This document shows positions 59,101 to 61,173 of a DNA stretch of 61,173 bases, piece by piece. Origin of the DNA: an uncultured Fidelibacterota bacterium (lineage in GTDB: Bacteria > Fidelibacterota > UBA8477 > JABMPR01); the NCBI GenBank assembly GCA_937888365.1, contig CALBFA010000076.1:1-61173 (forward strand), given 5' to 3'. The position numbers and the translations under genes were made by a program. The notes beneath the pieces are model-generated. The model saw only the letters and a list, made by a program, of their open reading frames with translations, was not told the origin of the DNA and made no database searches. Positions within the stretch are counted from its first letter, which is position 1. Each line of letters starts with the position of its first letter.

Positions 59101-59799
59101 ATGAATATTTTCGCAATTATTCCAGCACGCGGTGGTTCTAAAGGTGTCCCACGGAAAAATGTATTAGATTTCGATGGGATTCCTCTCATCGCCCATTCTA
59201 TTCTCCAGGCAAAAGCCGTTAATGAAATTGTGGAAGTCTATGTTTCGACGGACAATGACGAAATTGCAGATATTAGCGCCAAGTTTGGCGCGAAAGTTAT
59301 TCAAAGACCCGAAAACATCTCAGGTGATACCGCCACGACGGAGACAGCCGTCTCTCACGCGATTTCTGAATGGGATTCACAAAAGCTTTGTCCCGATGCA
59401 ATTTTACTGCTGCAAGCGACATCGCCGCTCCGTCCCGATTGGGGCATTGCAAAAGCCATCCAAACATTTAAAGAAGGCCATTATGATTCTTTGCTGAGCC
59501 TCTCGCAAACGCATCGCTTCTTTTGGAGCATTGATGGCGATGAAGCGCGGGCCGAATATGATTACGTCAATCGTCCACGACGCCAAGACATGACAGAAAA
59601 AGACATCCGTTATGTTGAAAATGGTAGTCTCTATTTATTTACGAGAGATCATTTTTTAACCCATCAAAATCGATTAGGCGGCAGGATAGGTAGCGTCGTT
59701 TTCCCCGAAGAATACGCAATGGAAATTGATAGCAAAACCGATTTTGAAATACTTGAACATCTCTCAAAAAATTTGAAAAAAAGGACAAATATTAAATGA
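59101..59799 (+). CDS. neuA: acylneuraminate cytidylyltransferase (CMP-nonulosonate synthetase), NeuA-like
   Basis: 232 residues. FAIIPARGGSKGVPRKNVLDFDGIPLIAHSI is the nucleotide-binding signature; VYVSTDNDEIADI, LLLQATSPLRP and NGSLYLFTRDHFL follow in NeuA order. It activates a nonulosonic acid (sialic, legionaminic or pseudaminic type) as a CMP sugar, the donor a GT29-like enzyme would need. Overlaps neuB by four bases (ATGA). Which nonulosonic acid cannot be read from the sequence. Confidence 0.88.
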   Translation: MNIFAIIPARGGSKGVPRKNVLDFDGIPLIAHSILQAKAVNEIVEVYVSTDNDEIADISAKFGAKVIQRPENISGDTATTETAVSHAISEWDSQKLCPDAILLLQATSPLRPDWGIAKAIQTFKEGHYDSLLSLSQTHRFFWSIDGDEARAEYDYVNRPRRQDMTEKDIRYVENGSLYLFTRDHFLTHQNRLGGRIGSVVFPEEYAMEIDSKTDFEILEHLSKNLKKRTNIK

Positions 59800-60845
59800 T
59801 AACGCTTAAACTTGGTTCATCACTTGTAGGTGAAAATCATCCCGTATATATCATTGCAGAAATTGGTATTAATCATCAAGGTGATGTCGATATTGCGAAA
59901 AAATTAATCTTTGAAGCAGCGAAAGCTGGTGCCAATGCTGTAAAATTTCAAAAACGGAAAATCTCTCGCATCCTAACAAGAGAAGGGCTTAATATGCCCT
60001 ATGAGAATAGAAATTCATTTGGCAAAACGTATGGTGAGCACAAAGAAGCGTTGGAATTAGATGAAAATAGCTATCACAGTTTGCATCATTATGCCCAAGA
60101 ACTAAAAGTAGATTTTATCGCCTCGGGGTGGGATGAGGACAGCATTGACTTTTTAAATACACTGGGTGTACCGTTTTTTAAAATGGCTTCGGCTGATTTG
60201 ACAAATCTTCCTCTTTTGGAGCACGCCGCTCGCAAAGGGAAACCAATGATTTTGTCAACAGGAATGGCGAATATGCAAATGGTTCAAAATGCTTTTGATA
60301 CGGTCAAGGCGCATAACAATCAAATTGCGATTCTTCAGTGTACGTCGACGTATCCTTCTGTTTTTAATGAGATTAACTTAAACGTCATTAAAACTTTTAA
60401 AGAAGTATTCCCAAACTCTGTCATCGGTTATTCGGGTCATGAATTGGGGATTTCTATTACGGAAGCAGCCGTCGTTTTAGGTGCAAAAATCGTTGAACGA
60501 CACTTTACGCTTGATAGAACCATGAAAGGCGGCGACCATGCTGCATCACTCGAACCAGGTGGCTTTGCCAAAATGGTGAGAGATATTCGTCATATTGAGC
60601 AAGCCATGGGAAAATCTGAGAAAGAAGTTCAAGAAAGTGAAGCGCCAATTTTTAAGAAATTAGCGAAAAGTATTGTTTCCGCCGTAGCAATTCCAAATGG
60701 CACGATTATCACACAAGCGATGCTCACGACTAAAGGGCCAGGGACGGGGATTTCGCCCTCACGTATCAAAGAAATTTTAGGAAAAATTGCGACACGAAAT
60801 ATTAAAGCCGATGAAATTATTTACGAGAGTGATGTTAAATTTTAG
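59796..60845 (+). CDS. neuB: N-acetylneuraminate synthase family protein, NeuB-like
   Basis: 349 residues: a TIM-barrel synthase with IIAEIGINHQGDVDIAKKLI, NAVKFQKRK, SADLTNLPLLEHAARKGKPMILSTGMANM, QCTSTYPSVFNEINLNVIKTFKEVFPNSVIGYSGHELG and ERHFTLDRTMKGGDHAASLEPG, followed by a C-terminal SAF (antifreeze-like) domain from about 290. Condenses PEP with an acylaminosugar to a nonulosonic acid. The epimerase (NeuC type) that would complete the pathway is not in the window. Confidence 0.88.
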   Translation: MITLKLGSSLVGENHPVYIIAEIGINHQGDVDIAKKLIFEAAKAGANAVKFQKRKISRILTREGLNMPYENRNSFGKTYGEHKEALELDENSYHSLHHYAQELKVDFIASGWDEDSIDFLNTLGVPFFKMASADLTNLPLLEHAARKGKPMILSTGMANMQMVQNAFDTVKAHNNQIAILQCTSTYPSVFNEINLNVIKTFKEVFPNSVIGYSGHELGISITEAAVVLGAKIVERHFTLDRTMKGGDHAASLEPGGFAKMVRDIRHIEQAMGKSEKEVQESEAPIFKKLAKSIVSAVAIPNGTIITQAMLTTKGPGTGISPSRIKEILGKIATRNIKADEIIYESDVKF

Positions 60846-60850
60846 AGAAA

Positions 60851-60963
60851 GAATCGGACACGGAGTCCATGATTGCACGGGTTTGATAGTTGAGAAAAAA
60901 TAAGTATATGACAATCAAATTAAATAGTATCCGTCAAATCCGAAGCATCTGTGTCCTTTAAAA
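60851..60963. repeat. tandem hairpin unit, copy 1
   Basis: 113 bases. The ends GGACACGGA and TCTGTGTCC pair, and an inner pair CGGGTTTG / CAAATCCG is formed in this copy only, where the other copies have CGGATT / AATCCG. Confidence 0.8.
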
Positions 60964-61079
60964 GAATTAGACACGGAGTCCATGATTGCACGGATTGCTT
61001 AATTGAGAGTAAAATAATATATGACAATCAAATTAAATAGTATCTATCTAATCCGAGGCATCTGCGTCCTTAAAAAAAA
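60964..61079. repeat. tandem hairpin unit, copy 2
   Basis: 116 bases, nearly identical to copy 3 apart from a few substitutions. The outer arms are weaker than in copy 1 because TTGG reads TTAG and CACGG faces CTGCG, but the inner CGGATT / AATCCG stem is perfect. Confidence 0.8.
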
Positions 61080-61173
61080 GAATTGGACACGGAGTTTAAG
61101 ATTGCACGGATTGCTTAGTTGAGAGTAAAATAATATATGACAATCAAATTAAATAGTATCTATCTAATCCGAG
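61080..61173. repeat. tandem hairpin unit, copy 3 (cut by window end)
   Basis: First 94 bases of a third unit, ending at ATCCGAG. The sequence GGAGTTTAAGATTGCACGG replaces GGAGTCCATGATTGCACGG. Confidence 0.8.

Follow-up and report, generated by a model that had tools for sequence, protein, structure and literature searches.

Among described systems, the closest to the repeats considered here are the REPINs and their RAYTs, for which mobilisation of non-autonomous units in trans has been proposed (PMC3116915; PMC3733652), together with MITEs and the 23S rRNA intervening sequences that carry an IVP ORF (PMC4990558). A further point of reference is the GxxExxY protein family (TIGR04256/PF13366, PDDEXK_3; PD-(D/E)XK fold), although GxxExxY, TIGR04256, and PF13366 have only incidental mentions, without an assigned function, in the open-access literature, and no description of a GxxExxY-hairpin association was found in the open-access literature searched. 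Here, we compare these systems with a tandem array of hairpin units that follows a neuB gene at the end of a contig. We consider this array to be, with a probability of roughly 0.75, a set of ORF-less, MITE-like tandem copies of a small mobile hairpin element that bears a GxxExxY gene; that is, the neuB hairpins look like the gene-less copies of an apparently undescribed mobile element rather than a conserved RNA.

The window (the whole stretch of DNA that was analysed, 61,173 nt) is a complete contig, C76 of genome G000, from an assembly of 2.53 Mb in 110 contigs. The features at its end are listed below.

59101..59799, + strand: neuA-like cytidylyltransferase gene, upstream in the operon (PF02348, E = 7e-26)
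59796..60845, + strand: neuB, N-acetylneuraminate/nonulosonate synthase, with a 4-nt overlap with neuA (PF03102, E = 9e-83)
60848..61173, + strand: tandem array of hairpin units of ~113-117 nt, cut by the contig end (TRF score 490)
60856..60956, + strand: hairpin unit 1, outer arms GGACACGGA/TCTGTGTCC (fold z = -2.9; arm PWM above all 39,881 genome windows)
60859..60884, + strand: left arm of unit 1, 9-nt periodic repeats CACGGAGTC / (degenerate CATGATTG) / CACGGGTTT (PWM from GxxExxY flanks of other genomes)
60927..60956, - strand: right arm of unit 1, minus-strand reading CACAGATGC / TTCGGATTT / GACGGATAC (PWM)
60969..61069, + strand: hairpin unit 2, arms decayed and fold at shuffle level (z = -0.27; PWM above all genome windows)
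61085..61173, + strand: hairpin unit 3, with ~12 nt of its right end cut off by the contig end (sequence)

The array begins 2 nt past the stop of neuB, a gene whose best NCBIfam match is TIGR03569, under its equivalog cut-off. The initial annotation had described ~115-base tandem units after neuB, in at least three copies that run past the window and have paired ends, and each of these statements held: TRF resolved a 116-nt tandem repeat at 60848-61173 (2.9 copies, 88% matches), GGACACGGA pairs with TCTGTGTCC in copy 1 and in the copy on contig C67, and, the window being the whole contig, it is the start of C67 (L003:1-113) that supplies a further complete unit, just ahead of a KdsC/KDN-9-phosphatase-like gene and then a waaA-like gene. 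Because the array stands at the end of C76, a unit opens C67, and the syntenic order is neuA-neuB-array-kdsC-waaA, the assembly appears to have broken inside the repeat; the array has at least three and probably at least four copies, with the total hidden in the C76-C67 assembly gap.

In each unit, an AT-rich loop lies between two inverted arms built from repeats with a period of ~9 nt (CACGGAGTC, CACGGATTG, CACAGATGC, CTCGGATTA), the left arm reading CACGGAGTC-(CATGATTG)-CACGGATTG with a degenerate middle 9-mer, the right arm reading CACAGATGC-CTCGGATTA-GACGGATAC on the minus strand, and the arm repeat having the consensus CRCRRAKNN. Arms of like style surround the GxxExxY genes of the window's genome and its relatives. 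One such flank, at the Neomarinimicrobiota locus L185, matches the flank at L102 of a relative, and on this ground the phylum is probably Neomarinimicrobiota. An arm PWM was built from GxxExxY flanks only, all from phylum members other than the window's genome (an initial version, too rigid at position 7, was retrained on the phylum). With it, the three complete neuB units each scored higher than any of 39,881 windows drawn from ~400 kb of the window's genome, and 0 of 3000 shuffles attained their scores. The kinship of the array to the GxxExxY hairpin element is well supported, and the array has the element's periodic inverted arms and its tandem units (~60-130 nt in the element as defined here) with AT-rich loop and linker. 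All five GxxExxY genes of the window's genome lie away from the array, and the exact arms of the neuB units recur at none of the genome's genes; nor was a GxxExxY gene found at the window end or at the start of C67, while the gap between C76 and C67 could hide one. With no GxxExxY gene in or beside it, the array is classed as an "orphan" and not as a full element. Two gene-less ~130-nt units also directly follow a GxxExxY gene on contig C53. Separately, a 17-codon frame (ATG ACA ATC AAA ... GTC CTT TAA; MTIKLNSIRLIRGICVL) spans the loop and right arm of array units (L003:62-118; window 60907-60960), and could be an ORF remnant or chance.

The GxxExxY proteins show an invariant pattern (D, ExK, Q..Y), with D67, E77, and K79 among the conserved residues in L185 numbering, and an AlphaFold model (pLDDT 95) was matched by Foldseek to lambda exonuclease and Cas4 SSO0001, the top matches having probabilities of 0.98-1.00 with E-values of only ~2e-3 to 9e-3, while a sequence search of solved structures returned only chance RelE matches. 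As modelled, GxxExxY is a nuclease fold and not a transposase. At four loci (L101, L111, L116, and L104), the GxxExxY ORF enters the right arm, so that the arm repeats encode its final residues (e.g., KIRVEPRGSAV, RKTIRETPRKSA) and C-terminal sequences differ from arm to arm.

The coupling of gene and arms emerges from genome comparison. A GTDB scan covered 80 GxxExxY loci, those most similar to the query and thus no random sample, and by record titles these were mostly from Bacteroidota, with others from Ignavibacteria/Chlorobi, Chloroflexi, Verrucomicrobia, Planctomycetota, Cyanobacteria, Proteobacteria, Acidobacteria, and methanogenic archaea. The IR score, which sets 180 nt upstream against 180 nt downstream, was at least 24 at 53 of 78 GxxExxY loci vs 3 of 262 controls shifted by 0.5-1.4 kb, and at least 28 at 47 of 78 loci vs none of the 262 controls; about a third of the loci had no clear arms. 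Arms matched their own partners best (the own-partner arm ranked in the top 5% against other loci's arms at 34 of 73 loci, with 3.65 expected), so it is within the element family, one lineage at a time, that the inverted arms are preserved or regenerated. Within the phylum, the median number of arm-motif pairs per genome was 6 in the 106 genomes with the gene vs 0 in the 139 without it, and gene and arm pairs correlated with a rho of 0.76 over the 245 genomes, a value uncorrected for relatedness among genomes that are phylogenetically non-independent.

Gene-less units also accompany coding ones. TRF detected tandem hairpin arrays at 14 GxxExxY loci; their units measure 58-222 nt, and every array lies no more than ~130 nt from the gene. 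At L104, from the window's family, four units stand in a row, the gene occupying the loop of the third while the first, second, and fourth are gene-less; the gene-less units retain the ATG start region and the ORF end, their middle missing, and look like internal deletions of the coding unit. A GxxExxY gene is likewise embedded between gene-less units, on both sides, at L138.

Insertion polymorphism, with empty sites, was observed for the array in the neuB-kdsC gap and for the coding form in the coxS-coxM gap. The array fills the former, a gap of 0 to ~120 nt that is free of any array in the relatives examined with neuB (including those of the same family), and this short, array-free state in relatives marks the array as a lineage-specific insertion. 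Searches for the exact unit in 244 other genomes of the phylum and in phages, plasmids, and viral contigs gave nothing meaningful, and BLAST of the array against relatives gave weak chance matches, the best one examined (L004) lying in apparent coding sequence. A lack of other copies in relatives had been put forward as evidence against a maintained hairpin: the exact sequence is indeed confined to 1 of 245 genomes, whereas the arm family does recur in relatives. In one related genus, the coxS-coxM gap holds the coding element in L111, L207, and L210, an internally deleted element in L209 and L214, and a solo scar in L206, and is empty in L208, L211-L213, and L218, these empty sites being too diverged to set the insertion boundary, and with it any target-site duplication, to the base.

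The neuB-kdsC gap of three same-order genomes (L081, L085, and L090) contains an insert of ~0.5 kb, indicating that the gap takes insertions. The one insert tested by profile (L090) carries a gene of the 23S_rRNA_IVP family (PF05635, four-helix bundle) that has short flanking repeats of its own (GAGGAAAGA; GAACGAGTAC in L081). IVP-type small-ORF elements may be a class parallel to the GxxExxY elements.

Several of these observations bear on the alternative that survives best, though we think it unlikely, namely that the units are passive repeats, in which replication slippage and templating by hairpins multiply short CACRGAK repeats wherever a gap tolerates them, the GxxExxY genes being passengers or beneficiaries of this growth. 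Such expansion is consistent with tandem units whose loops are nearly identical while their decay is uneven, and with seven genomes that have at least four motif pairs and no detected GxxExxY gene. However, inverted arms lie on both sides of the gene at most loci across phyla, and the empty, filled, and scar states behave as those of one element.

A second and less probable alternative treats the units as a structured non-coding RNA or as signals for processing, with the array co-transcribed with the operon and its hairpins serving in stability, processing, or attenuation of kdsC-waaA. The array does lie inside the operon on the coding strand, and as RNA the C67 unit forms a hairpin over its full length (-32.8 kcal/mol, z = -5.1), while copy 1 is intermediate (z = -2.9). 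Foldability is the sole positive evidence for an RNA role, yet a hairpin arises from any transcribed inverted repeat, and folding is uneven among the copies, copy 2 being at shuffle level (z = -0.3). Compensatory changes between copies, as claimed in the initial annotation, were not borne out: among the four copies compared, one of 27 pairs showed a two-sided change (T-A to G.T) and 4 of 27 were broken in at least one copy, covariation was equalled by 130 of 500 shuffles, and the inner-stem example (CGGGTTTG/CAAATCCG vs CGGATT/AATCCG) is a G.T wobble against A-T, hence a one-sided change. A hairpin repeat with paired ends therefore stands, but its maintenance by selection, as opposed to neutral decay, is not supported in this array; given uneven decay and between-copy covariation no better than shuffles, selection on individual units is unsupported, and uneven decay of an inverted repeat fits the array better than selection on each unit. 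In addition, the array had no Rfam match up to E = 5, a scan of 60600-61173 revealed no promoter-like site in the array or just upstream and no sense-strand terminator, and the exact units are missing from the other 244 genomes of the phylum.

REP/REPIN-type elements moved by a RAYT (Y1 HUH) transposase would also give intergenic, hairpin-forming, inverted-repeat miniatures, and the genome has three Y1_Tnp genes, but we regard this origin as very improbable. By inspection, 9-nt arms were seen at none of the three Y1 loci, two of which adjoin other palindromes (CTTACCCTGCCCTTTAGGGCAGG; CGTAAGCATCTTGCTTGCG-like), and the arms track GxxExxY genes instead; moreover, the units are ~100 nt with periodic arms vs palindromes of 20-40 nt with a GTAG or CGTC tag. 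A RAYT link was rejected, a GTAG/CGTC-tagged short palindrome being absent from the unit and the arms from the Y1 loci inspected. An artefact of assembly at the contig end is the least probable alternative of all, for while the array sits exactly there with its copy number unresolved, the copies differ from one another (3-17 differences pairwise), the first is joined directly to neuB, and the C67 unit is joined directly to the syntenic next gene.

Other repeats occur in these genomes. The palindromes beside the Y1_Tnp genes at L219 and L221 of the window's genome (CTTACCCTGCCCTTTAGGGCAGG; ACCATCTTGGTTGCG / AGCATCTTGCTTGCG) suggest separate RAYT-REP pairs. Contig C72 of the same genome (G000:C72 6751-7400; L033, L034) holds a tandemly duplicated 358-nt element with outer arms AACCACAGATTACACGGATTGCGCAGATT / CTCTGTGGTCTCTGTGGTT and nested palindromes (CCCCACCTTTTAAGGTGGGG; GGGCTTTAGCCC), and intergenic tandem palindrome arrays are present at L061:13918-14106 (CCCCTCCCAAGAGGGG, 65-nt period) and L066:6636-6964 (CTCCCCTCCTCGATAAGGAGGGGCAGGGG, 126-nt period).

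Under the reading of the array as gene-less copies of a GxxExxY element, the full-length element would carry the nuclease gene in its hairpin loop, and a unit would open with two to four ~9-nt repeats as its left arm, continue with an AT-rich loop or the ORF and with a right arm in which these repeats are inverted, and close with a brief AT-rich linker. The neuB units would then be gene-less miniatures that landed downstream of neuB, ahead of the kdsC-like phosphatase gene, at a spot where insertion breaks no gene, and subsequently multiplied in tandem. One of the genome's five GxxExxY genes may provide, in trans, a nuclease resembling Cas4 and lambda exonuclease that recognises the repeated arms or their single-stranded-DNA hairpin and cleaves or resects there, after which repair or template switching could copy units into new gaps and expand them in tandem. 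From the comparative coupling of gene and arms, we infer that the GxxExxY nuclease mobilises the units; both its part as driver of movement and the copying route are our proposals.

The family is widespread, its gene occurring in 106 of the 245 phylum genomes and being matched in many other phyla, and tying it to a defined repeat element gives GxxExxY a testable role and a candidate substrate, and accounts for a large set of unexplained intergenic repeats. It is possible, at somewhat less than even odds, that these elements form a new class of mobile element found in many phyla, i.e., a hairpin with 9-nt periodic arms that is mobilised by GxxExxY, a lone small Cas4/lambda-exo-like PD-(D/E)XK protein, instead of a transposase, and that sheds ORF-less tandem arrays, the one behind neuB being an example. 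If a lone nuclease does move DNA hairpins without a transposase, this would add a mechanism of DNA mobility.

Set against known systems, the array resembles 23S rRNA intervening sequences with an IVP ORF in that a small ORF lies within an element with pairing ends (PMC4990558), and in same-order relatives the neuB-kdsC gap itself is taken by an IVP-family gene, but the protein is unrelated (PF05635), the flanking repeats are different, and the array lies outside rRNA. As in MITEs, the ORF-less L104 units retain the two termini of the coding unit, the pattern expected of internal-deletion derivatives; unlike MITEs, there is no known DDE transposase parent, and head-to-tail tandem arrays are frequent. 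With the GxxExxY family (TIGR04256/PF13366), the neuB-unit arms match the flanks of the family's genes, while the gene is missing at the array. In mechanism and ALTERNATIVES, this is best read as an orphan array of ORF-less GxxExxY elements that may be mobilised in trans. Like REPINs/RAYTs (PMC3116915; PMC3733652), the units are intergenic inverted-repeat miniatures that form hairpins and clusters and have a single-gene "parent" in the same genome, but that parent is a PD-(D/E)XK (Cas4/lambda-exo-like) GxxExxY protein and not an HUH tyrosine transposase, and the arms are ~9-nt periodic, without a GTAG/CGTC tag, in units of ~100-130 nt. The array is therefore not a member of the REPIN/RAYT system, which is nonetheless its nearest working analogue.
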